A program made the translations under genes and the position numbers. The notes under the pieces were generated by a model. That model saw only the letters and a list, made by a program, of their open reading frames with translations, ran no database searches and was not told the DNA's origin. Below are positions 1-28,354 of a DNA stretch of 64,000 bases, piece by piece (the stretch's first letter is position 1; every line of letters begins with the position of its first letter). The DNA comes from Bacteroidaceae bacterium (GTDB taxonomy: Bacteria; Bacteroidota; Bacteroidia; Bacteroidales; Bacteroidaceae). The stretch is from the NCBI GenBank assembly GCA_024698925.1, contig JAILQO010000057.1, positions 1-64,000 on the forward strand. Reading direction: 5' to 3'.

Positions 1-1959
1 CTTCAAGTAATCCGGGTTGATCATGCCGGCACCGTTGTTGCCAAGGAATACATTGTTGACTATCACGTGCGAGCCCATCTTCAATTCCACCGTCGGTTTC
101 GCTAGCTTGGTGGCCAGACTGGCACAGTTACCGCCTACATAGACTGAGCCCTTGATGACTGTCGGTTTTTCCTCGGTACCGTAGAGTCGGACGGACACCT
201 GCTCGGCATTGGGACGGAACGCTTTTAAGGCTGCGGTAGATGTTAAAGAGCCTGGATTGTAATAGAAGTCGCCAAAGGTACTGTTGTTGGCCAAATCCTC
301 ATTGTCGGTATATGGATAGGCACCATTGCCACCACCATAGACATCGCCGCGGATAGTGGTATATATACCAACGGCATTGCCGCCATAGACGACACCTGTC
401 ACGTCGTTACCGCCATATACATTGTTGATGTCGCCACCCCTAATGAGCGTACGTGCCGAGAAGCCATCGGGGAAATGATAACCAGGAAGATTCGTACAAG
501 CTACATAGACATCGTTCACTGTTGGCATCACGTCAGCCATACGACAACCGCCATAGAGGTTGTCGACGATGAGGGTCGAATAGTCCTTAATTTCAAGGAG
601 CAGGCCTTCCGAACAGGTCATGGCACCCTTATTACCACCACTGTAGAGGTTACGTATCTTACCACTCAGCAGGTTCCATGTAGGACGGATATGCATCTCC
701 GCCTTGTTGTTACCACCAAAGAAACGGCCCACCTGGTACGCACCGCTGCTGGGCTGCGAGAAGGTGGTATTGATACCCATCTCCAGGAAGCGGTTGTCTG
801 AAAGCAATTCGGTAAAGCCCGGAGGAACCGGATTAGCAAACCCACTGGCTATATTGGCCTCATAAGTCGTATAAGTCGCATCTTCCGCCTCCACGCCTGT
901 TGTATTATCCACCAGGATATGGTTCACTACCTCACTGAGGTTGTCGATGTGGATGATATTTTGCTCCTTCACCGTAGCATTGTTACCGCCACCATAGGCA
1001 TAGACGATAGAGCCACCCAAGACCTCCAGATAGGTACTATCCAGTTCAGGACGCACGAAGGGCGACTTACTCCTTGCAATGATTGTTTCTCCTTGTTTGA
1101 TGACATATTCACCATTTACTTGTTCATCAGGATATTCAAAGTCACCATTACCACCGGCAAAGAGCTGTCCGATATATACCTTCTTGGCATCGGGGTCTTG
1201 CACGGCAGCAGTCTTCACATGATTAGTTGTCTTGCCGTAGGCTGGATCACTCGGATCCGACGCGGCAGCAATCTCTTCTGCGGTATAATAAACATTAGGA
1301 CTTGTCAACTTGGTGCTGATGCGCACATAGCTGTTGAAGGTGTTGGTGATTACATTCTTCTTCGGGTCTGGGTCTTCTGCAGCCTTCACCGCAGTCAGTT
1401 CTGTAGGCTTGCTTTCTCCTATCGTCATTGCCGTACCGATCTTTCCGGCAATATCATTACCGCCATATACCTGATTGATAAGGATATAGTCCGTGGCGTG
1501 CTCACCATCGATATGTACAAAGGTGTTACCACCCACATTGGCCATACGGGCACCACCAAACACCTTACCCTGCGGGTCTGCCAGCGGACGCGTTGCATTC
1601 GGGTCCATCACAGCACCGATATCGCCAGCCTTCACCGTCACCTTCGTGCTGCCCTTCACCTCGCCTTTGTTGCCACCACCATAAACGTTACCACCAATCT
1701 TAATTCTCGTCTGCGCCTGAACGGAGAAGGGGCAGGACATGAAAATGAAAAATGAAAAATGGAGAATGAAGAATGTGAAATGATAAATGATAAATGACAA
1801 AGCCCCACGAAGCCCATTGGTCTCATTGGTCTCATTGGCCCATGTCCATTGTCCATTGTCCATTGTCCATTGTCCATTGTCCAATGTCCATTGGCCCATG
1901 CTTGCCTGAGCTCCGTTCTGCCCAGTCAGCCTATTCCAATATAATTTATAATTTATCAT
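1..1959 (-). CDS. large VYGGGN-repeat surface protein, 3' end outside window
   Basis: An open frame runs on the minus strand from an ATG at 1959 to base 1 with no stop, so at least 653 residues are present and the C-terminus is missing. From residue ~80 the protein is built of spaced glycine-rich motifs such as GGNVYGGGNKG, QVYGGNDIAG, AYGGGNNAT, NLYSGGNKGA and DVYGGGNGA, separated by beta-rich stretches. This suggests a repetitive beta-solenoid-like surface protein, but I do not recognise a named family. The start is uncertain: ATGs at 1959, 1863 and 1740 are all in frame. The stretch 1741-1800 encodes an almost uninterrupted hydrophobic segment (FTFFILHFSFFIF) followed by SVQAQ, a plausible signal peptide with cleavage after QA. 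That segment is made of TTTATCATTT/CATTTTTC simple repeats. It is the last visible gene of the minus-strand fimbrial cluster, so a surface role is inferred from neighbours. Confidence 0.6.
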   Translation of the reverse strand, partial: MINYKLYWNRLTGQNGAQASMGQWTLDNGQWTMDNGQWTWANETNETNGLRGALSFIIYHFTFFILHFSFFIFMSCPFSVQAQTRIKIGGNVYGGGNKGEVKGSTKVTVKAGDIGAVMDPNATRPLADPQGKVFGGARMANVGGNTFVHIDGEHATDYILINQVYGGNDIAGKIGTAMTIGESKPTELTAVKAAEDPDPKKNVITNTFNSYVRISTKLTSPNVYYTAEEIAAASDPSDPAYGKTTNHVKTAAVQDPDAKKVYIGQLFAGGNGDFEYPDEQVNGEYVIKQGETIIARSKSPFVRPELDSTYLEVLGGSIVYAYGGGNNATVKEQNIIHIDNLSEVVNHILVDNTTGVEAEDATYTTYEANIASGFANPVPPGFTELLSDNRFLEMGINTTFSQPSSGAYQVGRFFGGNNKAEMHIRPTWNLLSGKIRNLYSGGNKGAMTCSEGLLLEIKDYSTLIVDNLYGGCRMADVMPTVNDVYVACTNLPGYHFPDGFSARTLIRGGDINNVYGGNDVTGVVYGGNAVGIYTTIRGDVYGGGNGAYPYTDNEDLANNSTFGDFYYNPGSLTSTAALKAFRPNAEQVSVRLYGTEEKPTVIKGSVYVGGNCASLATKLAKPTVELKMGSHVIVNNVFLGNNGAGMINPDYLK
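1741..1907. repeat. simple-repeat block (GTCCATT / CTCATTGGT / TTTATCATTT)
   Basis: Three repeat families abut. A 7-bp unit GTCCATT is iterated at about 1853-1890, a 9-bp unit TCTCATTGG at 1811-1840, and an AT-rich TTATCATTT-like tract at 1741-1800 on the minus strand. The block lies inside the translatable 5' part of the VYGGGN gene and supplies its putative signal peptide. Confidence 0.75.
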
Positions 1960-2115
1960 TTCTATTAATTATTATTCTTCTATTTTTCTTCGGCCGCTTT
2001 CGTTATTACGTTATCACGTTATTTCGTTATCACGCTTTGTTTTGCGGCCTATATTTTCGTTTTCCCTTTGTTCTCCCCTCCCTTGGGGAGGGGTTGGGAG
2101 TGGGCCTGTCATTCG
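1960..2115. repeat. intergenic spacer with CGTTAT repeats and CCCCTCC..GGAGGGG palindrome
   Basis: Between the stop of the fimbrillin-family gene (2116) and the VYGGGN gene. It holds four imperfect CGTTAT(T/C)AC units at about 2002-2034 and a GC palindrome at about 2075-2095 (CCCCTCCC, TTGG, GGAGGGG) followed by TTGGGAGTGGGCC. The same palindrome type recurs inside the signal-peptide regions at 24.3 and 25.6 kb. No convincing terminator T-run was seen. Confidence 0.6.
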
Positions 2116-3501
2116 TCATTCAATCGTTACCGTTGGATTATCCAAATCCGGTTCCGACATCACATAGAGGAATGTCGGTTTGATGGTGAGATCTACCGTA
2201 TATTTTTTGCCACGTTCGGTGGCGGTGAAGTGACCTACCAACTCGTTCAGTCGGACGGTGTTGGTGGCTACGCAGTCCTTACGGACCAGGTTGCCTTCTG
2301 GATGCTCAGTCGTTTTGTTGTTGTCATACACGTCGTAGGTGCTGGTCAGGATGACGGTGGTGGTACCTGACGGCATGAAGTGTCCCACGAAGGTTTTAGA
2401 GGTTGTTTCCAGCTGCACACCGTCGTCTGTTTCTGAGACGAATACGTCGTCGCCTGTGGACACTACCGACGTATGCTCATATACGATGCTCTCGATGGGG
2501 TCGGCACCATCGGTGGTGTGCTTTAGCGTGATGGTGACATCTGTTTTCTTTGTGATTCCATCGCCATTGGCAGTCTTCATGTGGATCTTCTTCAGCTTGA
2601 TGGTGCGCATGGCGGCATAGTCCCCGTCAACCTTGTAGTTGATGTCCAGCGCAGCACATAGATGATCGAAGAGCAGGAACATGCAGTTGATCATATGTCC
2701 CTCACCGTCCTTGGTGTTATTATACTTGAACTTGAAGTCACCGGTCTGCAGACGGTTGGTGCGGGTGTCGGTACCGTCATCATAGCTGCTGTTGCTGTTC
2801 GTGTCGGTATAGCCACCATCGTAGTAGGTATAATCGGGATCAGAACCGGTTTTGAACCCTTCTCTTGCCCCCACAATGACGCAGGCATCTGACATCACCG
2901 ACGGCATTCCGTAGAGTGTCAGCTTGGCACCATCCTCATAGCTAGATGAACCATCACGCAGGCTGATATTGGCATTGTCGGCAGCATTACGGGGAATGAA
3001 GCCATAGACGTAGTAGTCGGCTTGGGCCATAACTGAAGGATCAGTAGGATCAGAGCCGTCATTGAGGGTGAGCTTCCAGCCCTTAGTTTTGTTATAGTGC
3101 AGACGACCGTGTCGGCTGGCGTCCGTTCCTGTCGTGAAGAACACATCGACAGCCTTCGTCGTCAGACTCTGATAGTTGGTGATGCCAGCGTAGAGGGCGT
3201 CATAGTTATAGAAGGTGGTATACATTTGTGTTGTGGGGATGACCCATGACGAGACGCGTCGGGCGCCGTTCTTAGCGGCAGCATCTTTCATCGCGGGCAA
3301 CATAGTCACCAGCGCCATGTCTGTCTCTGGTACAGATTCTTCAATCTGTGCCGGTACGGGCATATCATCGACATCCTCGGAGCAAGACGTGAAGAGCCAC
3401 CCGCAGCCCACCATCAGAAGGACGGACAGCAGGAGCAGGTGCAACGGGGTGGTCCACCCTGTTGTCCTATTTCTCTTCAGTATCATTGCTTCTTGCACCA
3501 T
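2116..3501 (-). CDS. fimbrillin-family lipoprotein (Mfa-like)
   Basis: A 461-residue secreted lipoprotein. Residues ~20-40 form a hydrophobic segment ending in LFTSC (Cys40), a lipobox; Met6 is an alternative start. The C-terminal stretch YTVDLTIKPTFLYVMSEPD matches what I know of Bacteroidales fimbrillin-family (Mfa_like_1) proteins, and the middle has the usual WKLTLNDG and VDVFFTTG beta strands. The role inferred is a minor fimbrial subunit or tip/anchor component on the outer membrane. It follows the lipoprotein gene at 3673 and precedes the VYGGGN gene, all on the same strand. No promoter of its own was found in the AT-rich spacer, so co-transcription is plausible. A more specific Mfa subunit number cannot be assigned. 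Confidence 0.75.
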   Translation of the reverse strand: MVQEAMILKRNRTTGWTTPLHLLLLSVLLMVGCGWLFTSCSEDVDDMPVPAQIEESVPETDMALVTMLPAMKDAAAKNGARRVSSWVIPTTQMYTTFYNYDALYAGITNYQSLTTKAVDVFFTTGTDASRHGRLHYNKTKGWKLTLNDGSDPTDPSVMAQADYYVYGFIPRNAADNANISLRDGSSSYEDGAKLTLYGMPSVMSDACVIVGAREGFKTGSDPDYTYYDGGYTDTNSNSSYDDGTDTRTNRLQTGDFKFKYNNTKDGEGHMINCMFLLFDHLCAALDINYKVDGDYAAMRTIKLKKIHMKTANGDGITKKTDVTITLKHTTDGADPIESIVYEHTSVVSTGDDVFVSETDDGVQLETTSKTFVGHFMPSGTTTVILTSTYDVYDNNKTTEHPEGNLVRKDCVATNTVRLNELVGHFTATERGKKYTVDLTIKPTFLYVMSEPDLDNPTVTIE

Positions 3502-3672
3502 ACCTATATATATATATTATAAATTATAAAGAATAAATTATAAATACTAATGTTTAATGTTTAACGTATTGTTTTGAATGTTGCGCTCTTTCAAGCTTTA
3601 TCATTTATTATTTCTTATTTCTTATCTATTATTTATTATTTCTTATTTATCATTTATAATTTCTTCGGCCTG
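3502..3672. repeat. AT-rich TTTATTATTTCTTATT repeat spacer
   Basis: Spacer of about 170 bp between two fimbrillin-family genes. Bases 3598-3662 are a run of degenerate TTATTATTTCTTATTTATC units, the same AT-rich family that encodes the hydrophobic signal region of the neighbouring genes at 1.75 and 4.9 kb. No other element was seen. Confidence 0.6.
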
Positions 3673-5073
3673 TTACCAGTTATACACCGACTCGCTTCCA
3701 GTGAAGCCCTTCTTCCACCCAGTGAAGGCAGTGAGCAGATCACCGAACTCGACGCCACCATCACCGCTCACCTTGAAGATGTAGGTGTACTGGTAGCCAG
3801 CCTTCCATGTCATGTAGCCGGCGGGCACCACTGCCGTGCGGGGCTCACCATAGACCATCAGCGAGAGTGTGAAGCTGCCCTGACTGCTGACAGGCAGCAC
3901 GGTGTACCACTTACCTGGTGTCTTTACATCGCTGGTCGTCTTGCCGTAAGCAGGGTCTCCTGATGTAGCAGCGCCTATCTCGGCTTGCGTAAAGTATATG
4001 TCTACATAATCCTGCGTCATGGCAGTAATCGTATTCGTCGGCGTTGAATCGAAGCGTTCGCGCAGGTTCGATCCCGTGATGGGGTATGTCACAGTCACGC
4101 TGCCGTTAACGCCGATGCCGCTGTCGTCAGTGGGCTTGAACATCATGTCGTCCAGCTCCATGTCCTCGATTTTCACGGTGGGGTCGGCTGAGATGAACAT
4201 GAAGCGCACCTTTGTGAAGGGCTTCACGAACTCCAGCACCACCGGCTTGCCGAACTGCTTGTCGGGGTACTCTGCGGGGGTGCCGGTCGAGAACCATAGC
4301 TTGCTGAAAAGCGGCGCATCCGCTACTTTGTCGCCATAAAGATCGGGGATGGTGATCTTCAGCTCGGTTGCCCCTGTCAACGCATTGACGCTAATCTCCT
4401 CGTTAGCCTCGATGGCGGTTGTCCTCGCTGCAAAGCGGTACGCTTTGGCATCCCAGTCCCAGTATTTGATGGTCTGGTCGACGGGACTTGACATCACATA
4501 CTCCCAGCCGCTGCTGTTCGTTGTTGATGAGGCGGCACTACCATCCAGCCAGTTTACCGCATAGCCCGGGAATACCGTTTGGTAGTCGGTGTAACCTGCA
4601 CCGTCTCCAATATTCTTGAAGCCCCACACCTTGAACTGCGTAGCGCTCTCGCTCAGCGGTGTTCCCGCTGCGCGGGTCCCATAGGCCCCATTAGTCTCAT
4701 AGGTCCCATTGGCCTTATTGGCCCCATAGGTGCGGTGGCCATTGCCTTTCGCGCCAGCGGACTGTTCTTGTTCTTCCGCCATCGCTCCGCTGAAGCGGAT
4801 GGGGGTGAGTAGCGTGCCCTGTTCCGTGCCCTGCACAGCCGGCACCACCTCCTCATCATCTGAGGAGCAGCAGGATGTGAGACAGGTCAATGAAATGATA
4901 AATGATAAATAATAAATCATAAATGATAATGCACGATGACGCCCACGAAGCCCACTGGCCATTCTTGAGGCGTCAAGCGTCCCTACGGGCCGAGCGGTCC
5001 ATTGTCCATTGTCCAATGTCCATTGGCTCTTAGCCCCAAGACGCCCATTCCAATATAATTTATTATTTATCAT
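3673..5073 (-). CDS. fimbrillin-family lipoprotein with repeat-derived N-terminus
   Basis: A 466-residue frame. The lipobox LTSC (Cys68) follows a hydrophobic run (MIYYLSFIISLTC), so the functional start may be Met52 (position 4920) or Met38 (4962) rather than the first ATG at 5073. The mature part has the fimbrillin pattern ('TQFKVWGFKNIG', 'SSGWEYVMSSPVDQTIKYWDW', 'AYRFAARTT', late 'AGYQYTYIFKVSGDGGVEFGD'), close in style to the large fimbrillins upstream. Residues ~109-136 read as a GANKANGTYETNGAYGT-like string, which is translated 9-bp simple repeat (4665-4745) inside the mature protein. The first 50 codons contain TLDNGQWT, a translation of the GTCCATT repeat. The inferred role is an accessory or anchor fimbrial subunit. 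Its 5' block is homologous to that of the VYGGGN gene at 1959. Confidence 0.72.
   Translation of the reverse strand: MINNKLYWNGRLGAKSQWTLDNGQWTARPVGTLDASRMASGLRGRHRALSFMIYYLSFIISLTCLTSCCSSDDEEVVPAVQGTEQGTLLTPIRFSGAMAEEQEQSAGAKGNGHRTYGANKANGTYETNGAYGTRAAGTPLSESATQFKVWGFKNIGDGAGYTDYQTVFPGYAVNWLDGSAASSTTNSSGWEYVMSSPVDQTIKYWDWDAKAYRFAARTTAIEANEEISVNALTGATELKITIPDLYGDKVADAPLFSKLWFSTGTPAEYPDKQFGKPVVLEFVKPFTKVRFMFISADPTVKIEDMELDDMMFKPTDDSGIGVNGSVTVTYPITGSNLRERFDSTPTNTITAMTQDYVDIYFTQAEIGAATSGDPAYGKTTSDVKTPGKWYTVLPVSSQGSFTLSLMVYGEPRTAVVPAGYMTWKAGYQYTYIFKVSGDGGVEFGDLLTAFTGWKKGFTGSESVYNW
4665..4745. repeat. in-frame 9-bp repeat inside a fimbrillin-family gene
   Basis: About eight imperfect 9-bp units (CCCATTGGC / CTCATAGGT type) lie within the coding region at 4674-4732. 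They keep frame and encode a low-complexity Asn/Gly/Tyr stretch just after the lipoprotein signal, presumably a flexible linker. Confidence 0.75.
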
Positions 5074-5269
5074 TTATTATCTCTTATTTCAATTATCAAT
5101 TAGCTTTGCTGACTTCTGTCACGACTCGGCCATTCAAGAGCAGGCTCTTATGGCGCTCGCTGTTCTAGAAGTTGTCCATTCTCAATTATCCATTCTTGAG
5201 GTATCAAGCGGCCCTCCGGGCTCCCGCCGAGGCGCTGGGCCTCAGCGGGAGGGAGAGGGGAGAGAGGGG
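4890..5269. repeat. mosaic of intergenic repeats upstream of and within the 3673-5073 gene
   Basis: It contains a TAAATGATAAAT AT-rich tract (4898-4930), a module beginning CCATTCTTGAGG (4960-4990) that recurs at 5188-5220, GTCCATT units (4998-5020), a second AT-rich tract (5050-5100), and a GC-rich palindromic stretch with GGGAGGGAGAGGGG (5207-5270). The same order of modules is found upstream of the VYGGGN gene at about 1.74-1.96 kb. Confidence 0.7.
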
Positions 5270-7339
5270 TTAATTAACTTTGATGACCTTCACAGAATAC
5301 ACTTTATTAAGGTTAGTATACTTCTTGTAATATGTGCCATCTGCATAGTCGGCCGCTCCACTACCGCTGTTAATAGCGGTTACTCCATCAGGATCTGTAT
5401 ACCATAATCCTACAGTTGCCCAATCAGCTGGCTGTGCAGTAAGTGCTTCAGCAGAATATATATAACCATCTGCACCATCAGAAACTTCATATACATATGC
5501 GTATGTAGCTGCAGTTGGTGTGAACTTAACAGCTGTATTCTTGCGGTAATAAGTTCCATCTGCATAACCTCCTGTAGCGGCCGTTACACATGCTGCATCC
5601 GTATAATAATTAGTAGGCCAATCACCAGGATTAGCAGTAAGAGTAACTTTCTTTGTTACAGGAACTGCGTTACCATCAGGTGAATCGTCAGCAGCAATCT
5701 CTGTTACTGCTGTAGAAGATTCCTCTCTTAAGGCAATTCCATTACGGCCGGTGATAACCAAAGGACTACCAGTTGCGCTAACTTGAACATTCAGAGCATC
5801 CATAACTGTAGCCTCTGTAATACCAGATCCTGTTACAGTATAGAGCTTGCCTTTAGAGTTCAAGTTTTCCTTTAAGTCAGCATCCTGTACCATCACATAG
5901 ACAGAGCCCTTGGCATCATCATATTCATTATCCGTATAAACATGTCCCTTTTGGTAAGTAGTGATAGCAGGTGTAGCAACAGTTGTGATAGTTGACTGAG
6001 TGCCGTCTTCAGTATCTAATACAATAGCATCGAAGGTGATGGGATAGAGACCTGCAGGGTCTGTATCTACCGTACTCGTCCAACCATTGGTATTATCGCT
6101 AATCTTGAAGAGATAGGTGTAAGCATAATTAGGCTTCCACTGTGCATAAACCTGAGGAACGAATGCCTTTGCGCCATGAATCTTAATAGTTTCCTTAGTA
6201 CCATCAATAGCTTCGAGGGTGTAGTCCACACGAAGTTCAAGGACATTACCTGCTTCATCAGGAAGAACCGTTACGTAATAAGGATCCGATGCACCAGCAA
6301 ATGATGGGGCTGCAGCAGTACGCTTGAGATAGGTATTAGGATTGCTCGCATAATTCAAACGAGCATCTTCCCAGTTAGCAGGAGTTGCTTCATAGTTCAG
6401 AGCACTGAATGTCATAGTTGATGCCGGAGTGTCACCAGCTCCTGCGGCAAAAGTAACGTGAGCCTTGTTGTAATCGGTCTCGCTTTTATTGCTCGTACCA
6501 ATGGTTGGGAATTTAACCGTCATCGTTCCTGTTGTATGGAAAACATTACTGCTTGCAAACAACGTGGCATTGGTTTCTGAGGTACCAGTAGCAATTGTTG
6601 TGGCATCATCAGAATAGAATTTGACATCTCTAACAGAGTAGCCAGGAATGGTCTCATAAAGAGCAATACGAACCTTGGAACCAAGGCGACGGAACTTGAA
6701 CGGCACTTCATCCTTATAGTTAATATCGGGTGATGAGGCTCCTGACTTTATTGCTGTAACCAGGTCGGCAATATAGCTCTCACCAAGATCTGTTGCACTA
6801 CCCGTCAGAGTATAGGCTGCTGTAGTGAGGTTGGCTTGGTCAATAGCTGTTGCCTTAATCTCATTTGTACCTGGCGTTCCTGTGATAATAATGCTTTGGT
6901 TCTTGCCTGCAGAGAAAGCAACAAAATCATAATAACTTGCTGCATAGTCCCAATACTTGATTGTCTGATCACCAGATGTGATGTGACCAGTAAAAGCAAG
7001 AGGAGATAGCCCTACATATTTCCAGTCAGAAGTATTGTCTGCTGTCGTTCCTGCAGTGTTTGCACCCCACTGTACCAAATAGTGATCGAATACTGTGGAA
7101 TAAGCACTACCATCATTCTTGTAACCTCCAACATAGAACTTTCCGCCTAACAGGTCAGCAGCATCAGCACCCACATGGTCTGCACGTGTGGTGGCTTTGA
7201 AAACACCTCCGAACGTGATTTCTTCAGTTCCTTTACCGGCTGCATTCAGCGCCTCTTGATCTCCGACGAAGCTTTCGTCGGCGCAGCTAACGAGCGTTAA
7301 AGCTCCAATGGCTGCCATGAATAAATACTTTGTCTTCAT
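5270..7339 (-). CDS. fimbrillin-family lipoprotein, large paralogue 1
   Basis: 689 residues from the ATG at 7339, which begins a textbook lipoprotein signal (MKTKYLFMAAIGALTLVSC, lipobox Cys19); frame upstream of it is read-through. It carries the fimbrillin hallmarks: an early ATTRADHVGADAADLLGGKF segment, SDWKYVG, QTIKYWDYA, a central 'FRRLGSKVRIALYETIPGYSV', and 'YAYTYLFKISDNTNGWTSTVD' near residue ~400. It is unusually long for the family. The C-terminal ~117 residues hold two imperfect copies of a module with YTD..(A)..YADGTYY(R/K)K and end VYSVKVIKVN. The paralogue at 8397 has the same architecture, so these arose by tandem duplication. It is predicted to be exported, lipidated and polymerised as a fimbrial shaft or variant pilin. 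Confidence 0.8.
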   Translation of the reverse strand: MKTKYLFMAAIGALTLVSCADESFVGDQEALNAAGKGTEEITFGGVFKATTRADHVGADAADLLGGKFYVGGYKNDGSAYSTVFDHYLVQWGANTAGTTADNTSDWKYVGLSPLAFTGHITSGDQTIKYWDYAASYYDFVAFSAGKNQSIIITGTPGTNEIKATAIDQANLTTAAYTLTGSATDLGESYIADLVTAIKSGASSPDINYKDEVPFKFRRLGSKVRIALYETIPGYSVRDVKFYSDDATTIATGTSETNATLFASSNVFHTTGTMTVKFPTIGTSNKSETDYNKAHVTFAAGAGDTPASTMTFSALNYEATPANWEDARLNYASNPNTYLKRTAAAPSFAGASDPYYVTVLPDEAGNVLELRVDYTLEAIDGTKETIKIHGAKAFVPQVYAQWKPNYAYTYLFKISDNTNGWTSTVDTDPAGLYPITFDAIVLDTEDGTQSTITTVATPAITTYQKGHVYTDNEYDDAKGSVYVMVQDADLKENLNSKGKLYTVTGSGITEATVMDALNVQVSATGSPLVITGRNGIALREESSTAVTEIAADDSPDGNAVPVTKKVTLTANPGDWPTNYYTDAACVTAATGGYADGTYYRKNTAVKFTPTAATYAYVYEVSDGADGYIYSAEALTAQPADWATVGLWYTDPDGVTAINSGSGAADYADGTYYKKYTNLNKVYSVKVIKVN

Positions 7340-7441
7340 AATGGTAAATGTTTTAGTTGTTATTAATATATTTATTTGTTTCTGTTTTTGTGCACCGTTC
7401 GGCACCGGCCTCGCGCGTGCGTATATATTTAATGTGTAGAT

Positions 7442-7768
7442 TTATTTGTTATTTATTCTTTTTATCAAGTTCTGAGGTGCTCGACGTGTATCCCAGATGT
7501 CTTCTATGACTACCATATCGTTTGCCTCGTTATACCAATATATTATTTTGAATCGTTTGTTGATTAGAGTGGCGCGGTAAATAGGAGTTCGCTTTTCAAG
7601 CAATGGCTCCCGGAATCCCATGCCAGGAAAGAGGGATAGTGCATCTGTAAGAGACTCTATCTTTCGAGCCATTTTCAGGGCTGTGAAAGTTCCATATTCA
7701 GTGGCTCCTCTCACATAGAGTTCCTTACGAACGGCTTTAGCCCTTTCAGTCAACTTTACAACAGCCAT
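7442..7768 (-). CDS. RelE/ParE-family toxin
   Basis: A 108-residue basic protein: N-terminal helical part (LTERAKAVRKELYVRGATEYG), then the RelE/ParE beta-sheet core with YRATLINKRFKIIYWYNEAND and VVIEDIWDTRRAPQNL. The ATG lies 13 bp inside the 3' end of the upstream antitoxin-like gene, the usual coupled arrangement. Known members act as mRNA interferases or gyrase poisons; which applies here cannot be told. The pair sits between fimbrillin genes 1 and 2, transcribed in the same direction. That is an odd place for a TA pair and may help stabilise the locus (inference). Confidence 0.8.
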   Translation of the reverse strand: MAVVKLTERAKAVRKELYVRGATEYGTFTALKMARKIESLTDALSLFPGMGFREPLLEKRTPIYRATLINKRFKIIYWYNEANDMVVIEDIWDTRRAPQNLIKRINNK

Positions 7769-8091
7769 GGGAATTCTTTTTTGAGTTCTTCACGTACTTC
7801 CCTTTCTGTGTAAACCTCTCCTCGCAGATACTGCTGATGAGATTCATCTATGCGGGCATTCAGTTCTTCGAGGGTGTAGGGCGGAAGGTCGCTGTCGTAG
7901 GTGTCCCATGCGGCATCGTCATCAATGTCCTCTTCGCATGCTACTTCCTGGGTGATGTAGCTGATCAGACATCTTTTGTCTGCCGTGCTCAGGCCACTAA
8001 TCTGTGTGAGCAGACCGCTGTTCACCAGATTTTCGCTCATGCCGTATGTTGATAACATCGGCTCGCTGACCTTATCATGATACTTTCCCAT
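7756..8091 (-). CDS. antitoxin-like protein paired with RelE/ParE toxin
   Basis: An acidic 111-residue protein from the ATG at 8091. The frame opens with a TTG at 8100, but the ATG is preferred. The middle is helical, with an aspartate-rich stretch (EEDIDDDAAWDTYDSD), followed by LPPYTLEELNARIDESHQQYLRGEVYTEREVREELKKEFPWLL. The 'YTLEELNARIDE..Q...G' form is common in Bacteroidales antitoxins next to ParE-like toxins. It overlaps the toxin start by 13 bp. No clear HTH is seen, so the DNA-binding part, if any, is unconventional. Confidence 0.7.
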   Translation of the reverse strand: MGKYHDKVSEPMLSTYGMSENLVNSGLLTQISGLSTADKRCLISYITQEVACEEDIDDDAAWDTYDSDLPPYTLEELNARIDESHQQYLRGEVYTEREVREELKKEFPWLL

Positions 8092-8396
8092 ATCTTTCAA
8101 TTACTCAATTGTTATTTCTCTAATTCTCTAATTCTTGACTTTTTTCGAGGCACCGGCCTCTTTTCATTTTCGTCTTCGTTAAATTACTGCATCACTATGA
8201 AAAACTTTTTCTATGCCTATGGAGAAATGTCTCTTAGGCCTTTCCGTAAAAATAGTTCTTTTGTATAGTTCTTGACAGTACTTGTTTTTTTCTTTCTTTG
8301 TTGTTACCAAGTGGGGAGTCGAACCCCACTTGGTTTTTGATTGTTTATCGGAGTCGCGCTCGGCCCTTAGGACGCTCGCAAGCTCATGAACAGAGA
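8092..8396. other. 305-bp spacer: AT-rich, one strong hairpin
   Basis: Lies between the end of fimbrillin paralogue 2 and the TA pair. Apart from the hairpin at 8307-8338 it holds only AT-rich sequence with T-rich runs. No open frame with recognisable features was found, and no Bacteroidetes-type promoter could be placed with confidence. Confidence 0.5.
8307..8338 (+). terminator. perfect 10-bp hairpin with T-run on plus strand
   Basis: CCAAGTGGGG, loop AGTCGAA, CCCCACTTGG, then TTTTT. The T-run follows on the plus strand although all nearby genes are on the minus strand. On the minus strand the loop reads TTCGACT with a GTGGG/CCCAC stem, like a tRNA T-arm. It may be a bidirectional or antisense terminator, or a tRNA-end relic. 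Confidence 0.5.
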
Positions 8397-10430
8397 TTAT
8401 ACGACCTTAATCACTTTCACGCCGTAAACCTTGTGGTCAACTTTGTACCTGCGGTAGTAGGTCTTGGTTTTGCCTGTAGCTGGAGCTACATATGTATCTA
8501 CAGCAGAACCTGTTCCATCAGGATTGTCCCAATAGTTGCCACTCCAATCCGCGGGTGCTGAAGTGTCTGTCTCAGTGAATACGACAGCTGAATAGATATA
8601 AGAATCCTTTGCATAGTAGGTCGTTGATGAACTCCAAGTACCAGTTGCTTCAGTTGTACATGTGGCATTAGTGTAGTAACCTGTGGGGAAGCCAGCAGGT
8701 GATTCAGACAAATAAAGTGGGCTATATGTCTTTGTGTCATAGACAAAAGCGTAAGTGCCTGCACTAACTGTGAGTTCCGCTGCTGTTTTTGCCCCAACAG
8801 TAATGGGATTACCATTCTCGCCTGGAATCTGTTCAATTGAAGTACTAACTGCTGTTGACGTAACCTCTGTAAGCTCGAGTTTGTTGCGACCAGAAATATT
8901 TAGAGCATCCAATACAGTCGCTTCTGAAATCTCAACAGCACAACCTGTTCCTTTTGCTACAGTATAGAGTTTACTATTAGCATCGAGGTCATTTCTAAGC
9001 TTTGGGTCTGCACTTTCCAAATATACTTGTGCATAAACCTTACCCTTACTTGCTGAGTACTCGGGACCGTCTGTAAATAAGTGCCCCTTCTGATAGGTGG
9101 TAATGCTTGGAGTAGCAACTGTTGTAATAGTGGTCTGCTCACTTGTTGTCTCAATAGGATTGAGAACTACAGCGTCGAAGGTGATAGGATAGAGACCTGC
9201 AGGATCAGTGGTAGTTGTGCTCGTCCAACCATTGGTGTTATCGCTAATCTTAAAGATGTAAGTGTATGCATAGTTAGGCATCCACTTTGTGTAAGTCGCT
9301 GGTACAAATGCCTTTGCTCCGTGAATATGAATAACATCACTTGTATTTCCATCCTCAGAAACAAGGTCATAGTTTACGCGCATCTCCAGAACAACGCCAG
9401 TTTCATTAGGCAGCACTGTCTGATAATATGGAGTTGTGCCAGCAAAAGTTGCAGCAGTGGATGTTACTCCTAGCTTCGAACTAGTATAATTCAGTGTACT
9501 AAAAGATTGTGTTGAAACAGCAGCTGATCCTGTGATACCAACGTGAGCCTTGTTGTAGTCACTGGTCGGGCTTGTGCCACCAGGAGCTTTAGCACTACCG
9601 ATATTGGGGAAAGTTACAGTATAAGTACCTTTTGAGTAGAATGCATCAGCACCAAAGAGAGTGGCGTTTGCATTGTTAAGCTGGCCCGAACCAGTACCGG
9701 AGACTTTGAGAGGATCTGTGTCATTCTCGTAGAACTGGACATTTTGTACAGAATAACCAGGAACGGTCTCATAGATTGCCATGCGAATCTTAGAGGCCAG
9801 TGAACGGAACTCAAGTTCTACTTCCTTTTGGTAGTTGGCTTTAGCTACGGTCTTCATATCGGTGATGTAGCACTTGGCGAGTTCATTACGGTTACCAGTC
9901 AGTGTATAAGCCCCAGTCGTTGCGTTAGCATATGAGATGGCAGTAGCTAAAATCTGATTATCGCCCGGTGTACCTGAGGAAATGAGTGTATTTCCCTTGC
10001 CGATTGAATATGCGCAGAAATCATAGGCCGTTGTACTGAAATCCCAGTATTTGATGGTCTGTGATGTAATTCCAGTTGTAGAACCAAAATCATGGGTTTT
10101 GCTAACATATTCCCAGTCAGAGGTGTTGCTTGCGGTGGTTCCTGCGGTGTTCGCAGTCCATTCTACAGAATAGGTCTTGAAGACATCAGTTTGTCCAGTG
10201 CCTGTTCCGTCACCTTTAACACCGTGAACGTAGAATTTGTTGCCGAGTAGGTCGGCTGCATCAGCTCCAACTTGGTCAGCACGGGTCATGGCCTTGAATC
10301 CACTACCAAACTGGATGGATCCGTCATTCACTCCTTCGACAGTGCCTGGGGTGGCGTCGCCGATGAAGCTTTCGTCGGCGCAGCTGGCCATCAACGTGAC
10401 GGCGGCTGCGAGGAAGAGAATCTTTTTCAT
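8397..10430 (-). CDS. fimbrillin-family lipoprotein, large paralogue 2
   Basis: 677 residues from the ATG at 10430 (MKKILFLAAAVTLMASC, lipobox Cys17); an ATG three codons earlier at 10439 is less likely. It follows paralogue 1 segment by segment: 'MTRADQVGADAADLLGNKF', 'TSDWEYV', 'QTIKYWDF', 'FRSLASKIRMAIYETVPGYSVQNV', 'YAYTYIFKISDNTNGWTST', 'DPAGLYPITFDAVV'. The ending is again two repeats of a (Y/W)(Y/W)TN/DN..T...TYY unit, then VYGVKVIKVV. The lipoprotein signal and fimbrillin core suggest an outer-membrane-exported pilin. The spacing to the upstream paralogue 3 is only 58 bp, so the two are probably co-transcribed. Confidence 0.8.
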   Translation of the reverse strand: MKKILFLAAAVTLMASCADESFIGDATPGTVEGVNDGSIQFGSGFKAMTRADQVGADAADLLGNKFYVHGVKGDGTGTGQTDVFKTYSVEWTANTAGTTASNTSDWEYVSKTHDFGSTTGITSQTIKYWDFSTTAYDFCAYSIGKGNTLISSGTPGDNQILATAISYANATTGAYTLTGNRNELAKCYITDMKTVAKANYQKEVELEFRSLASKIRMAIYETVPGYSVQNVQFYENDTDPLKVSGTGSGQLNNANATLFGADAFYSKGTYTVTFPNIGSAKAPGGTSPTSDYNKAHVGITGSAAVSTQSFSTLNYTSSKLGVTSTAATFAGTTPYYQTVLPNETGVVLEMRVNYDLVSEDGNTSDVIHIHGAKAFVPATYTKWMPNYAYTYIFKISDNTNGWTSTTTTDPAGLYPITFDAVVLNPIETTSEQTTITTVATPSITTYQKGHLFTDGPEYSASKGKVYAQVYLESADPKLRNDLDANSKLYTVAKGTGCAVEISEATVLDALNISGRNKLELTEVTSTAVSTSIEQIPGENGNPITVGAKTAAELTVSAGTYAFVYDTKTYSPLYLSESPAGFPTGYYTNATCTTEATGTWSSSTTYYAKDSYIYSAVVFTETDTSAPADWSGNYWDNPDGTGSAVDTYVAPATGKTKTYYRRYKVDHKVYGVKVIKVV

Positions 10431-10488
10431 AATAGTCATAGTTTATGAGTTAGTATTAATTTATGATTTATATAATTATTGTATCTTA

Positions 10489-12384: not shown

Positions 12385-12637
12385 AATCGTTTGTTTTTAG
12401 TTTTTGTTATTTGTTTTGTTTGTTTCTTTTTCTTTCGTTTCTGTTTCTTTTTTCTTGTGAATGGCGCCCCTGGGACGCGTGACACAAATCAGAGATTTTA
12501 GTATTTACTGGTTCGTAGTGAATGATTTTCTTAAATTTTTATTTTTTATTTTTGATTAATTCGTGAAATGAATTTATGTTTAATTATTGTAAAGTTCTTT
12601 TTTACATGAATTGTCCATGAATCGCGTCATGAATTTC
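12385..12637. other. 253-bp AT-rich leader upstream of the fimbrillins
   Basis: Pyrimidine-rich (TTTGTTTCTTT) next to the fimbrillin start, then AT-rich, with three CATGAAT units at about 12603-12645. No CAAAnnTA box suitable for a minus-strand Bacteroidetes promoter could be found. The length would allow a long 5' untranslated leader. Confidence 0.4.
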
Positions 12638-13141
12638 TCATGAATTATTATCGTTTAGTTCATTCTCTTTTTCGAATCTCCAATAATCTTCAGGGTCTAT
12701 ATCTGAATCTACGGGATAAAGCAAATTCATATTGCGGTCCAAAAGCACACATTCGTTTGTCTCTTCAATGTAGGCATATCGTTCACCCTGTAAACTCTTG
12801 CTCCCAAAATTGATGAGAAGACTGATAGGTGACTTTGTCAGACGCATGTAGTTGAATAGCTGTGCCCTATGGGCAGGGATGATGTCGCAGGTTGATTTTA
12901 GCTCGATGATGATATCCTTGACTGATAAGTCTGGTTGGTAGTATTTCTGCATTAGCTGTCCTTTGTAATAGCAAGGGAGGTGTTCCTCCATAGAGTGAGG
13001 GATGCCACGTGCCTGAAGTTCCATATGTAGAGCCTCTGTATATAAAGGCTCCAACAAACCCCAGTTTAGCTGGGAGTGGACGGTCATGGCTGCGCCAATG
13101 ATATCGTATACTACCTTTTTATAATCCTTTGGACTCACCAT
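12638..13141 (-). CDS. GxxExxY family protein (PD-(D/E)XK-like)
   Basis: 167 residues. The family motif appears as GLLEPLYTE (residues ~29-37), followed by 'HLPCYYKGQLMQKYYQPDLSVKDIIIELKS', where D..(I)IELKS resembles the D-ExK core of PD-(D/E)XK nuclease folds. GxxExxY proteins are common in Bacteroidetes; their function is not established. It sits between the DUF5119-like lipoprotein and fimbrillin 3, same strand, with 77 and 253 bp spacers. Its presence inside a fimbrial locus, like the TA pair, looks like insertion of a stability or defence-type cassette (inference). Confidence 0.8.
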   Translation of the reverse strand: MVSPKDYKKVVYDIIGAAMTVHSQLNWGLLEPLYTEALHMELQARGIPHSMEEHLPCYYKGQLMQKYYQPDLSVKDIIIELKSTCDIIPAHRAQLFNYMRLTKSPISLLINFGSKSLQGERYAYIEETNECVLLDRNMNLLYPVDSDIDPEDYWRFEKENELNDNNS

Positions 13142-13218
13142 TTGAATTTATGAATAATTTGTGACTTATATTTATGATTAATTCGTGTGAAAATAGGGTC
13201 GGGGGCGGGCCCGTTTCT

Positions 13219-14496
13219 TTACATTTCTATCACCCAGGTGCCGCCATCTTCGTAGTCCTTAACTACGGCATTGAATCCGGAGCCGCCGGGGCGGGTGGGT
13301 ATTGGGACTGTGTCCATATCGAGTTCCACTTTGATGACGCCACCTTTGTAGAGCCTTTTGACTTGGTCGGTTATGTCAAACACCAGCGTTGAATCCATAC
13401 CGTTGTTGAATTGCACGTCCATGTCCATGTAGTGGCGAAAGGGGTCGCGGACCTGTGAGGAGTGGGTGATCTTGTTGGCTGCGATGTCGCAGATGCCGAA
13501 GGTCATCACGCGCCCGCCCAGCACATCGGCGTACTCCGTCGTGGCGTCCGGGACCTTGGGGTCGTCGGGGTGGTAGCCCAAGAGGGGGATGTCCCTCTTC
13601 ATACGGACGTCGAAAGGCACGGAGACGGCTTCCGAACCGCCCTTACCGGTGTTCACGTTGGTGGAACGGGCGAAGCCAGAGATCTGGCCGGTACCGATTT
13701 CCTGTGCGATGCGTCCCTTGTTGTTATGTAGAATCAGCTCGATCAGGTAGATATAGGTGATGGGGCGCAGCGTCATGTTCAGCTGCTTGACCCATACATT
13801 GCGCTCGGCATCGAAATCGAAGCCCTCCAGATCGCGGTTGATCTCCATCGCCTGGTCGTAGGCGGAGAACAGGGCCTCGGGCTCGTAGAAGGCACGCGTA
13901 AATTGGGGAGCGTGGTAGCGCGAGGGCACCATCGAGGGGTTGGTGAAGGCCGTCACGGAGTCGAGTGACGTCGCCTCGTCGAAGTGAAGACTGACGATAC
14001 CGTCAGGTGACACGGTGTTGTTCCAGACCAGAATGTCCCAGAAGCCCCATTCGTACTCGCCCTGGAAGTGGTTGCCCGCGATGGGTGGGTCGTTGGGGGG
14101 CGCGACGGTGTGGTTGGCGAAGGGAATCTCGCCGGTATAGTAGCGGCGGAGGAGGAATACCTCAGGCTTGGTGTAGCCGATAGGACCCTGGTGGTCCAGG
14201 TAGTCCTTCTCGTCCCAACCGTAGTGCCACTCGGCTTCCCAGTCGTACTTGACACCGTACTCAATCTCGTAGTCCCACAGCACCTTCAGGTCCAAATCCA
14301 CCTCCGGGAATTCCAGCACCGCCTTCATGGAACGGTACAGGTGGAGCTCCGGCTCGCGCACGCAAGAGATAAAGACCATAATAAGCCCAATGAGGCCAAT
14401 GAGGCACATTGGTCCAATGGATAATGGACAATGGGCAATGGACAATGATTGTCCAATTGCGCTCATCCTGCTTATTATGGTCTTAATTCTTAACAT
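13219..14496 (-). CDS. DUF5119-like fimbrial lipoprotein
   Basis: 425 residues from the ATG at 14496; ATGs at 14466 and 14409 are alternatives. The hydrophobic run CLIGLIGLIMVFISC ends in a lipobox Cys45, then VREPELHLYRS. The 'C.RE.EL..Y' opening and aromatic-rich 'WDYEIEYGVKYDWEAEWHYGW' resemble DUF5119 lipoproteins that accompany fimbrillins in Bacteroidales. The family assignment is from memory and moderate. It lies between the OmpA-DUF3575 gene and the GxxExxY gene, so a pilus anchor or assembly role is likely. The signal-peptide core is coded by 9-bp CTCATTGGC repeats and the preceding residues by GTCCATT-type repeats, so much of the export signal is simple repeat. Confidence 0.65.
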   Translation of the reverse strand: MLRIKTIISRMSAIGQSLSIAHCPLSIGPMCLIGLIGLIMVFISCVREPELHLYRSMKAVLEFPEVDLDLKVLWDYEIEYGVKYDWEAEWHYGWDEKDYLDHQGPIGYTKPEVFLLRRYYTGEIPFANHTVAPPNDPPIAGNHFQGEYEWGFWDILVWNNTVSPDGIVSLHFDEATSLDSVTAFTNPSMVPSRYHAPQFTRAFYEPEALFSAYDQAMEINRDLEGFDFDAERNVWVKQLNMTLRPITYIYLIELILHNNKGRIAQEIGTGQISGFARSTNVNTGKGGSEAVSVPFDVRMKRDIPLLGYHPDDPKVPDATTEYADVLGGRVMTFGICDIAANKITHSSQVRDPFRHYMDMDVQFNNGMDSTLVFDITDQVKRLYKGGVIKVELDMDTVPIPTRPGGSGFNAVVKDYEDGGTWVIEM

Positions 14497-14580
14497 TAAA
14501 TTTTCGTTATCGTTCTCGTTTCGGCCTCATTGTCCATTGTTCATTGTCCATTGTCCATTGTCCATTAGGCCTATTGGTCT
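14380..14580. repeat. 9-bp and 7-bp simple repeats around the DUF5119-like gene start
   Basis: Bases 14385-14412 carry AATGAGGCC units read in frame as the LIGLIGLI signal core. Bases 14410-14460 carry TGGACAATG-type units. Bases 14526-14568 carry six GTCCATT units in the spacer to the OmpA-DUF3575 gene. The same families occur at 1.8, 4.7, 5.0 and 15.3 kb. Confidence 0.75.
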
Positions 14581-14581
14581 G

Positions 14582-16141: not shown

Positions 16142-16216
16142 TTTCGTTTTTTTTGTCCGCCTTGCACGCGTGTGTAGATTATTAAGTCGCGTGTGTGCGT
16201 GAACTTTATTTAAATG

Positions 16217-25540: not shown

Positions 25541-28354
25541 ATGAAAATGCTCAACACAATCCTCAACCGGATTTTACGCCCCTCCATCACAGGGAGGGGT
25601 TGGGGGGTAGGTCTCCTCCTGTTAGTTTCTCTCCCAACCTTTGCTACCGATTGGAACGCCAAAACCGATACCGTGTGGGCTGGCCGTCACTATCGCGAGA
25701 TTAACGGTATAGCCACCGATGTATGCGACCAGAACACCACCGCTCGCTGGAACTATCCGACAGGCACCATGCTTGTCTATGGCCTTCGTATGCCGAATGG
25801 TCACGTTCGTGGCGACCTCACTGTGACGGTAGATAACGGACACGCCGTGAATCTCCATGTACGCATTCTCTATCCCGCTACCAATAGCGTTATCGTGGAC
25901 CACACGGTGAAAACAGCCGCAGGTAAGACCAGTAAGCAAACCATCGAGTTCCTGCCGGATACAGAGCTGGAGCATGACGGATGGTACCGCATGGAAGTGA
26001 CCAGTGACGATGCCAAGGACATCCTCACCATGCACCACCTGCTCTTCCAACGTACCTCCAGACAGACGGTTACCGATGCCAATTCGCTGATGACGCAGGC
26101 GGTACATCTATGGTGGAGTTCTACCGACCCAGGTGCCAATACCACCGAGGACCGCTACGACTGGGTCTATATGGAAGCCCGTGTTCCAGAGGCATTTAAG
26201 CAATCCTGCACCTACCAGATGACCATCGGTTCCTCTGGCCTATATTCCGGCATCCAGACCAACCACCTGTTGGCAGATGACTCCTGGACACATGCCGTAA
26301 TCTTCTCGGCATGGGACAATGGTGACGTGGATGTGGATAAGAACCTGCCCGACTACTTGCGGTCTGGCGCCCTGGACACAGGTGACGAAGCCTATGCCGT
26401 GCGCTTCGGCGGTGAGGGCACCGGTGCCAGCCTGCGCTATCCCGAGGGGCAGCGCTGGCAGACCGACCATTGGGTCCAGATGCTGCTCTACGAACGTCCG
26501 GACTACATGGAAACCGTTAGTACCGATGCAGAAGGGAAGACGACGGTGATGCCTTTCCGCAGCACGCTGCTGTCCTATTGGTACAAGCAGGCAGAGGAAA
26601 CCGAATGGCATTATTTTGGCACGCTCCGCATGGCCAATAACTACCGCATGGAAGGCAACAACTCAGGCCTTTACAGTTTCCTCGAGAACTGGTCCGGTTT
26701 TGGCGGCGACCTCTACCGTCGTGTCTATTACCGCAACGGCTGTATGCGCTCTGCGGCAAGCGGCAAGTGGTTCAGTCTCAACAAGGTGGGCTTCGGAAGC
26801 ACCGATAAGAATACACGTAATTCGCGCACCGACTATGGACACGGCGTGACCCGTTTATACGAGAACAGTTTCTATCTGGAGTCTGGCGGATATATCGCCA
26901 AGGACGACAGCGCCAATACCTATCCCTATGTGGCGCAGGGAAAGATGCCGTGGGTGGACACCATCAATATCCAAGCGCTGCGCGACCGCGTGGATAAGGC
27001 TGTCCTGCGCAACAACAACAAAGACATCCTGTTCCGCATCGAAGGGACCAGCGTCGTTTCAGACCCCGCCACATGGCAACTCATTGGTTACAGCGACGAG
27101 GAGACACAAGGTGAAGGCGACTACGGACGTGCTGCACAGATCCTGGACGGCAGCACGACGACGTACTACCGCAATCAGTACAATCCCACGTGGAAAGGTT
27201 TCCCGCACATGTTCTCCTTCGATGCTGGAGAACCCGTTACGGTGCGCAGTATCGGCCTTTACCAAAGTCAAGATGTCAATCACCGCGCCAAGGACATGCA
27301 ACTCTATCTCTCGGATGACGGCAAGAGCTGGACCAATAAATGCAAGGTCACATTCCCAGAATCCGATGCACCTTCCGTGGTGCTTCCTGAACCCGTCACC
27401 TCGCGCTATTTCCGCTTGCGCTTCACTTCGGGCTATGGCTGGAATGACGGACGTCTGGCCATCAACGAAGTCTATTTCAAGAACGAATACCGATTGGAGG
27501 ACATGAAGGTTCTAGCCTCTGAACTTCTGGCGCAGGAAGACTGCTTCAGCGGCTATCGCCCAGAGGACCTACAGACGCTGAAAGACGTCTATGAAGAAGG
27601 GCGTTGCACCGACCTGGAGGCCCTCAAATCCGCCATCGAAGCGTTGGGCGCGTCGGCATTGCCGCTGACGTGGGGTAATGTGGACAAAATCAGCCATATC
27701 AGTTCCTTCTCTGCCTATCAGTTGCATAATGTAGGTGGACTTGGTAATCTCGTTGTGGATGAGGCCGGTAAACTTACTCTCTCCGGCGCTACCGTCGAGG
27801 GCGCCTTGGAGGCTTACTGCCAGCCTACGCGTGTCTCGCAACCCTTGAACAACTGGCTCGTTTTGCGTTCCGAGCGTTTCGGCGAATACTACATCTACAA
27901 CCTCGGTGCCAAGAAGTACCTCAACCTGACTACCGACCGCGTCTATCAGCTCGCTGACGAGCCGCAGGCTTTTGCACTCACACTCCGCAACAGCGCTTTC
28001 ATGCTCGGCACTCGTGCAGCCCATGTCACCCTCAATGCAGCAGATTCCGAGGCTCCCGTCGCACCGTCATCACGTATTGATGACAGTTGCCTCTTTGAGT
28101 TGCGCAACAACTACGGCCTCTCGCCGACAGATCAGGAAATCTGTCAGCAACTGGCAGCCTGTGAAGGAGCGGTGCATGTCGGCGTGGGAGACATCGTGCC
28201 CGACGAGAATACACTCTTTGGAAAGCAAGTCAGCGTCTATAACCTCCAAGGCATCGAGGTTTGCCGTGCACCCTATGAGCGCATCCCGCGCCTCAAGCCC
28301 GGCACCTATGTCCTCAAAAGTGGCAAGAAAGTAGTCAAGAGACTAGTTCAATAA
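25541..28354 (+). CDS. multidomain secreted protein (DUF5077/DUF3472/F5-8C) with C-terminal tail
   Basis: 937 residues. The signal is the segment TGRGWGVGLLLLVSLPTFA, coded by a repeat element. Residues ~40-150 resemble DUF5077 and ~160-330 DUF3472 ('VHLWWSSTDPG', 'YDWVYMEARVPE', 'GIQTNHLLADDSWTHAVIFSAWD'); both are associated with carbohydrate-active proteins. Residues ~505-650 are an F5/8 type C (discoidin) domain ('AAQILDGSTTTYYRNQYNP', 'SIGLYQSQDVNHRAKDMQLYLSDDGKSW'), a sugar- or surface-binding module. Residues ~760-870 contain a 'YYIYNLGAKKYLNLTT' lectin-like repeat. The last ~40 residues ('VYNLQGIEVCRAPYERIP', 'LKPGTYVLKSGKKVVK') resemble secretion-associated C-terminal tails. It is predicted to bind or process extracellular polysaccharide. 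Confidence 0.75.
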   Translation: MKMLNTILNRILRPSITGRGWGVGLLLLVSLPTFATDWNAKTDTVWAGRHYREINGIATDVCDQNTTARWNYPTGTMLVYGLRMPNGHVRGDLTVTVDNGHAVNLHVRILYPATNSVIVDHTVKTAAGKTSKQTIEFLPDTELEHDGWYRMEVTSDDAKDILTMHHLLFQRTSRQTVTDANSLMTQAVHLWWSSTDPGANTTEDRYDWVYMEARVPEAFKQSCTYQMTIGSSGLYSGIQTNHLLADDSWTHAVIFSAWDNGDVDVDKNLPDYLRSGALDTGDEAYAVRFGGEGTGASLRYPEGQRWQTDHWVQMLLYERPDYMETVSTDAEGKTTVMPFRSTLLSYWYKQAEETEWHYFGTLRMANNYRMEGNNSGLYSFLENWSGFGGDLYRRVYYRNGCMRSAASGKWFSLNKVGFGSTDKNTRNSRTDYGHGVTRLYENSFYLESGGYIAKDDSANTYPYVAQGKMPWVDTINIQALRDRVDKAVLRNNNKDILFRIEGTSVVSDPATWQLIGYSDEETQGEGDYGRAAQILDGSTTTYYRNQYNPTWKGFPHMFSFDAGEPVTVRSIGLYQSQDVNHRAKDMQLYLSDDGKSWTNKCKVTFPESDAPSVVLPEPVTSRYFRLRFTSGYGWNDGRLAINEVYFKNEYRLEDMKVLASELLAQEDCFSGYRPEDLQTLKDVYEEGRCTDLEALKSAIEALGASALPLTWGNVDKISHISSFSAYQLHNVGGLGNLVVDEAGKLTLSGATVEGALEAYCQPTRVSQPLNNWLVLRSERFGEYYIYNLGAKKYLNLTTDRVYQLADEPQAFALTLRNSAFMLGTRAAHVTLNAADSEAPVAPSSRIDDSCLFELRNNYGLSPTDQEICQQLAACEGAVHVGVGDIVPDENTLFGKQVSVYNLQGIEVCRAPYERIPRLKPGTYVLKSGKKVVKRLVQ

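Follow-up and report, generated by a model that had tools for sequence, protein, structure and literature searches.

Dispersed 7-bp repeats encode predicted signal peptide cores in a Bacteroidaceae genome, probably in place of ordinary signal peptides

Results

A VYGGGN-repeat protein with a repeat-coded leader

The window, 64,000 nucleotides of contig JAILQO010000057.1 from the draft genome of a Bacteroidaceae bacterium of likely rumen origin, starts at the first base of the contig, and the ORF of the giant VYGGGN-repeat protein at its left end is therefore truncated (Table 1). The ORF has an ATG start and the N-terminus MINYKLYWNRLTGQNGAQASMGQWTLDNGQWTMDNGQWTWANETNETNGLRGALSFIIYHFTFFILHFSFFIFMSCPFSVQAQTRIKIGGNVYGGGN, and several close orthologues contain open frames of ~4,200-4,400 codons. 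The protein has no match in Pfam or NCBIfam, and a protein database search with residues 1-90 was uninformative, as none of its 12 candidates had E <= 0.01.

Read on the coding strand, the leader consists of four parts: a start motif, AATGGAC and 9-bp units, an NNNCATT array and a c-region. TRF reports 7-bp arrays at 1742-1801 (AAAATGA on the plus strand) and at 1814-1893 (CCATTGT on the plus strand). The initial annotation stated that the hydrophobic core preceding SVQAQ is repeat-coded, and this is confirmed, as the eight in-phase NNNCATT units at 1741-1796 on the minus strand lie within the stretch 1741-1800 that encodes LSFIIYHFTFFILHFSFFIF. The residues ahead of the core had been ascribed to GTCCATT units; they are repeat-coded as well, but the unit of the coding strand is the reverse complement, AATGGAC, translated as NGQWTMD. 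CPFSVQAQ is also present in the G083 and G127 orthologues. The predicted signal peptide is atypical, with 53 residues ahead of the core, an acidic stretch upstream of it and a hydrophobic core of ~20 residues, above the usual h-region length of about 10-15.

Other genes of the window have repeat-coded leaders as well. The predicted lipoprotein at 3673-5073, which has no match in Pfam, carries a leader similar to that of the VYGGGN gene, and a DUF5119 predicted lipoprotein carries heptamers and 9-bp units. Predicted lipoproteins and surface proteins, DUF5119 and DUF3575 among them, are clustered in the minus-strand region 1-16219, perhaps a fimbria-like locus, and three genes there have leaders coded by repeats. 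A second dispersed element, a G-rich palindromic repeat (CTCCCCTCCCTTGGGGAGGGG..GGG.GTGGGCC), was found at 32 sites in this genome (G000); it supplies a predicted signal peptide of the GRGWGVGLLLL type to the DUF3472 protein at 25541-28354 and likely also the one at 24303-25421.

Table 1. Repeat-coded leaders and related features. Positions are those of the window unless a contig or locus is named; a slash marks the predicted cleavage site.
Feature	Position	Strand	Source
5' part of the giant VYGGGN-repeat protein ORF, 653 aa	1..1959	-	ORF list
c-region MSCPFSVQA/Q, predicted signal peptidase I site, Q at +1	1711..1740	-	sequence
Eight in-phase NNNCATT heptamers, coding the hydrophobic core	1741..1796	-	
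AATGGAC heptamers and CCAATGAGA 9-mers, coding MGQWTLDNGQWTMDNGQWTWANETNETNG	~1814..1895	-	
AATNATA heptamer run forming the leader start motif (ATGATAAATTATAAATTATATTGGAATAGGC, translated MINYKLYWNR); probable start codon of the gene	1929..1959	-	
Intergenic copy of the G-rich palindrome	2075..2106	+	
Neighbouring predicted lipoprotein ORF, similar leader (MINNKLYWN ... LSFMIYYLSFIISLTCLTSC)	3673..5073	-	
Core of the 3673-5073 leader, coded by TATCATT-type heptamers	4893..4929	-	
Second start-motif copy, 3673-5073 leader	5043..5073	-	
DUF5119 predicted lipoprotein; CATTGTC heptamers at 14413-14447 and 9-bp CTCATTGGN units in the leader (MCLIGLIGLIMVFISC)	13219..14496	-	
G-rich palindromic repeat within the predicted signal peptide of the DUF3472 protein (SITGRGWGVGLLLL)	25579..25614	+	
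DPP IV (Peptidase_S9), heptamer-coded predicted signal peptide: MKKPLLFIIYHLSFIISVVA/QGTIDDY			
GH88/alginate lyase, heptamer-coded predicted signal peptide: MRRLLFIISYLSFIIYPAFA/QSD			
PorZ, heptamer-coded predicted signal peptide: LLFIILYLSFIISPDAYA/QIGSW			
DUF3316, heptamer-coded predicted signal peptide: CHSSFIIRHSSFVILLTFLSSPASA/QS			
Heptamers within protein bodies	G000 C13 5685-5747, 10324-10358, 11251-11285, 19618-19652; C75 50305-50339; C91 21070-21158		
RecG loci	L076 7996-8193 (G000 C91); L220-L246	- (L076)	

The repeats belong to a dispersed family of heptamers

Our sample of 440.8 kb came from the draft genome of G000 (2.81 Mb, 97 contigs, 85% complete); it consisted of non-random contigs and included the window. 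The other genomes of the genus are drafts too. Runs of three or more CATT cores, each exactly 7 bp from the next, occur 33 times in the 440.8 kb versus 0.33 expected (Markov resamples, mean of 3), and control spacings of 4-6 and 8-13 yielded 0-6 runs each, with 25 at a spacing of 14, the harmonic. The unit types include TTTATCA, TTTCACT, CATTCGT and CATTGTC, and their abundance differs among the genomes of the genus. Arrays of CATTCGT were detected in 27 of 139 genus genomes (at most 291 matches in one genome), those of TTTATCA in 63 of 139 and those of TTTCACT, with up to two mismatches, in 109 of 139; at the level of the order, with a different cut of up to one mismatch, 23 of 198 genomes had TTTCACT arrays. 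The unit types of the coding arrays also occur between genes. Reversed-pattern controls were high in some genomes for TTTATCA and zero in most for CATTCGT (19 in G116), and for TTTCACT the control is uninformative since the reversed unit is a rotation of TTTCACT itself; the case for a heptamer family is based on the lag and Markov tests and not on reversed patterns.

Some heptamers are read in frame within the bodies of proteins. These often form NGQWTMD-like linkers, and two of them directly precede a YDLSGR/YDLQGR motif at the C-terminus.

Heptamers encode the cores of predicted signal peptides in unrelated genes

Genes of the sample were called and sorted by simple, loose, home-made gene and signal peptide callers, the latter of which relies on hydropathy, K/R and a cleavage site and that passes 130 of 251 genes, membrane proteins included, and their first 90 nt were scored for identity at a lag of 7, a score without E-values. 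A lag-7 identity of at least 16/21 was reached by 7 of the 130 signal-peptide-like genes, a share that may overstate the genome-wide one as all sampled contigs had a GTCCATT match, versus 0 of the 108 others, a contrast that is not independent because the caller favours hydrophobic N-termini and the heptamer translation is hydrophobic. Two controls are independent of this bias. Synonymous-codon shuffles reached the cut in 0.36 of 130 genes compared with the 7 of 130 observed, and five of the seven genes match Pfam families, namely DPP IV/Peptidase_S9, PorZ, DUF3316, alginate lyase, and GH88 plus alginate lyase. The enzymes of these families, as well as PorZ, are generally known as exported proteins. 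At other lags the signal-peptide-like genes gave no hits (5, 8, 11 and 13), one (10) or eight (14, the harmonic). The seven include the window gene at 3673-5073; the VYGGGN gene, RecG and the DUF5119 gene at 13219-14496 fall outside this group, as does a DUF3256 gene (C8 79302), which scores 15, below the cut. Two of the seven were called from a TTG start, and genes lacking a usable ATG were left out (13/251, 19/242 and 10/212 in the three samples, respectively).

The same pipeline detected 1 of 127 genes in 400 kb of G016 and 0 of 103 in 400 kb of four heptamer-poor genomes, so that the counts for G000, G016 and the heptamer-poor sample (7/130, 1/127 and 0/103) track the tracts per Mb (54.4, 17.5 and 2.5). 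One gene of G016 without a predicted signal peptide scored 15/21, just below the cut.

The encoded segments have a core and a cleavage site like those of Sec signal peptides. Seven sampled genes with heptamer-coded cores pass the hydropathy cut for an h-region; the cleavage sites read SVQA/Q, VVA/Q, AFA/Q, SIA/Q, AYA/Q, ASA/Q and ATA/Q, the lipoboxes LTSC and FISC, and the single exception to Q at +1 is ASA/V at C13 13247. According to the Bacteroidetes Q-rule, as part of PMC5837995 presents it, Q occupies +1 after the signal peptidase I site. A positively charged n-region is present in the MKK-, MRR- and MKR- cases; the VYGGGN leader has its long, partly acidic pre-core segment. For DPP IV, PorZ and the lyases, the array comes after the start and ahead of the AxA/Q site, with no second signal peptide further on. 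The suggestion of the initial annotation that signal peptides here are taken from intergenic repeats is supported to the extent that more genes have repeat-coded cores and the same unit types are found between genes.

It could be argued that signal peptides with many codons for F, I, L and S drift towards pseudo-heptamers by local slippage, independently of intergenic repeats, as the codons of hydrophobic residues are T-rich and degenerate arrays (lag 7 of 13-14) exist in relatives. We consider such convergence improbable, as synonymous shuffling yields 0.36 genes and not 7, the same unit types have intergenic copies, the heptamer-poor sample contains 0 such signal peptides, and the leader start motif described below recurs before two gene families.

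Orthologues point to replacement of signal peptides

We traced three gene families among relatives. For DPP IV, 80 orthologous loci were kept from the named records, out of more matches; 6 of the 10 closest loci (74-83% identical) are heptamer-coded, one of them with another unit (FIFHFSFFI), and none of the remaining 70 is, their lag-7 maximum being 14/21, with 5 of the 70 aligned only downstream of the N-terminus and kept in the count. Of the GH88 loci, 4 of 26 are heptamer-coded, our own included, after 4 of 30 lacking a readable N-terminus had been dropped. The VYGGGN gene is heptamer-coded by score in 7 of 24 orthologues, our own included and loci not reaching the N-terminus left out, with the units TTTATCA, GTTCAAT, TCAATTC and others. 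The G120 orthologue (L204) has a TTTTTCA array in addition to these seven and was scored as non-heptamer in the tree because extra residues shifted the array outside the scored stretch, and that of G113 (L213), at 15, is just under the tree cut. The G142 orthologue carries the G-rich element (YGRGLGVVLLLL), as judged from its residues.

The fewest changes between the heptamer-coded and the other state, counted without direction on quick maximum-likelihood trees of the mature parts that contain several weak forks, are at least four for the VYGGGN gene, at least three for DPP IV and at least four for the GH88 gene. The cleavage region remains recognisable across orthologues though the core differs, being built from other units or from none. 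A conserved non-repeat signal peptide in the orthologues had been named as evidence against a repeat origin, and it is encountered in part: the G030 and G031 orthologues (71-75% identical) carry the non-repeat signal peptide MRRVITILISALLSTIVAQGQ at the same place. Since the heptamer-free members of all three families have signal-peptide-like starts, the comparison points to replacement, and it is most likely that the repeats replace the signal peptides of proteins that are already exported. The proposal that new secreted proteins could arise through the spread of repeats is for the same reason not supported as it stands; a newly exported protein was not found in the three traced families.

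A similar core that is not heptameric, VLxVATLSQL or VLSVAIASQL, is found on the DPP IV orthologues L082, L084 and L086 and on a different gene of G000, at C8 20752-23910, and is perhaps another shared signal peptide.

As G000 is an 85% complete draft of 97 contigs, repeats misjoined at gene ends during metagenome assembly could in principle mimic such leaders. This is very improbable, as records from other projects, metagenome-assembled genomes of roe deer, red deer and yak among them, have a heptamer-coded DPP IV core at the same position and the leader motif is common to five genomes.

Because the 7-bp unit is not divisible by three, slippage by one unit shifts the frame, and the coding heptamers could be phase-variable contingency loci in which each unit gained or lost toggles the protein. 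Such a mechanism has a precedent in print in the CTCTT pentamers of the leader-peptide region of Neisseria opa (PMC3960869, in part), and 10 of 11 heptamer leaders, RecG included, have an ATG only in the natural frame; nevertheless, in 4 of those 10 a different frame offers a GTG or TTG, and the VYGGGN gene has ATGs in two of the three frames. In sister species the unit numbers of 3 of 3 arrays are identical (twice between G152 and G157, once between G136 and G139), one array being in the PorZ leader of G152/G157 and two upstream of genes, in stretches that differ by 6-15% overall. Moreover, many arrays are imperfect, and imperfect repeat arrays slip more slowly. Given the equal unit numbers, phase variation is not our main reading, and we regard it as unlikely, if slightly less so than convergence. 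The short stretches around the arrays are near-identical in sister species (L290/L305, L293/L295 and L300/L309), with better conservation than in much of the flanks, which may reflect constraint or recombination.

The start codon and an inverted-repeat leader

The VYGGGN frame most likely starts at 1959, as the start motif is in frame in relatives and the ATG at 1740 is replaced by CTG in G083 and G127. Between the array and SVQAQ these two orthologues have no ATG, GTG or TTG but only a CTG, a rare start, so that translation from 1740 without a signal, which the initial annotation had raised as an objection, is unlikely. A scan of 139 genus genomes placed the start motif at 7 sites in 5 of them and the reversed motif at none; the motif sits ahead of two gene families. 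All 8 leaders compared, those of five VYGGGN orthologues and of the 3673-5073 gene with two likely counterparts, keep its ATG in frame across a middle part whose length varies; they share descent and are not eight independent tests. In six of them the ATG follows a stop by 0-9 codons, and 61-86 open codons precede the mature part. These leaders point to a long translated leader.

In both window genes the start codon sits in AATGATA, the inverse of the core heptamer TATCATT, and as the start thus lies in the opposite heptamer orientation, the leader is an inverted repeat with the start in one arm and the core in the other. In all 7 leaders folded as RNA, the AUG is predicted to pair with the core arm (in one of them through two of its three bases). 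The hairpin z-scores range from -0.2 to -6.6, those of the two window leaders being -3.6 and -5.4, and as only 4 of 7 are below -2 we mention the hairpin as a side remark; that pairing of the arms might affect translation is a guess.

An alternative is that the arrays are untranslated 5' sequence within an open frame and that translation begins at a downstream start. Such an extension is seen at RecG, where the open frame runs into heptamers upstream of the likely start, and at C8 86040, where an ordinary and complete signal peptide lies downstream of a heptamer-rich frame, and the VYGGGN gene has an ATG directly after its array. As a general account we find it about as improbable as convergence, as the DPP IV, PorZ and lyase arrays lie between start and AxA/Q with no further signal peptide, the ATG at 1740 is a CTG in G083 and G127, and all 8 leaders, which differ in length, keep the start motif in frame.

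RecG, a cytosolic helicase, was considered as a counterexample and set aside: its heptamers are read as a 5' leader, since relatives suggest a downstream AUC start. Among the 26 of 30 loci that were read, 13 have no in-frame ATG, GTG or TTG before LPGVG, and 16 have ATC at the position where three relatives have ATG. It is likely that RecG of this genus starts at a non-canonical AUC.

Discussion

Judging from sequence comparison, we think it probable that the core of the predicted VYGGGN signal peptide is coded by a tandem 7-bp repeat of a dispersed family that took the place of an ordinary signal peptide and did not bring about new export. Signal peptides tolerate very many hydrophobic sequences. 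In the CATT sense (TTTATCA)n is stop-free and encodes the hydrophobic seven-residue cycle FIIYHLS in all frames, the cycle being identical in every frame because a 7-bp unit passes through all three of them in 21 bp. An array landing between a start codon and an existing AxA/Q or lipobox site would therefore be a ready h-region, and selection on export would then be expected to keep it.

A more tentative thought, which we hold to be rather less probable than its opposite, is that the leader is portable. As AATGATA gives a start and TATCATT a core, an inverted pair before any gene could constitute a complete leader, and the heptamers might form a genome-wide reservoir that renews signal peptides, and possibly yields new secreted proteins, over evolutionary time.

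The natural replacement of one signal peptide by another is rarely caught, and here it can be traced gene by gene among relatives. The source of the replacing signal peptides is marked, being a 7-bp repeat with a hydrophobic translation in every frame, and through such leaders the origin of targeting sequences becomes directly testable. Gene starts and secretomes of such repeat-rich genomes are easily misannotated.

A title on repeat-derived signal peptides in Bacteroidales was not found among the matches listed from the open-licence PubMed Central literature, and the comparisons that follow draw on parts of the papers cited. Rickettsia palindromic elements are dispersed repeats that were co-opted into coding sequence, and to our knowledge neither they nor PARCEL elements amount to a heptamer signal peptide. 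PARCEL repeats are likewise dispersed and co-opted into coding sequence, as 25-residue domains (PMC2996958, in part). Borg tandem repeats are fast-evolving and lie between and inside genes, the proteins concerned being often extracellular (PMC9879509, in part); the heptamers resemble them in that one repeat class occurs both between and inside genes, whereas all coding units of Borgs are multiples of three, mostly in disordered regions, and here the unit is 7 bp and forms a signal peptide core.

The TAACTGA heptamers of Beggiatoaceae, Cyanobacteria and some Bacteroidetes were proposed to be translational control sites (PMC4679880, in part). Both they and the present repeats are dispersed direct repeats of 7 bp that lie close to start codons, lack stop codons in one orientation and sometimes fall in ORFs near protein ends, but the unit sequence here is different, with types such as TTTATCA in place of TAACTGA, and the abstract and sections 9, 12 and 15 of PMC4679880 contain no link to signal peptides. 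In Neisseria opa, as in our genes, a tandem repeat with a unit that is not a multiple of three (7 bp here) lies in the signal-peptide-coding region; opa, by the part of PMC3960869 used here, is one gene family with one pentamer and on/off switching, whereas the heptamers are dispersed, occur in unrelated genes, differ between species and have equal unit numbers in the three arrays compared.

In the GDF/BMP family the orthologous signal peptides diverge strongly through neutral and compensatory changes while their predicted function is kept (PMC2717928, in part). The signal peptides described here similarly combine strong divergence with a function kept by prediction, yet in place of accumulated neutral and compensatory changes we propose their replacement by repeat arrays.
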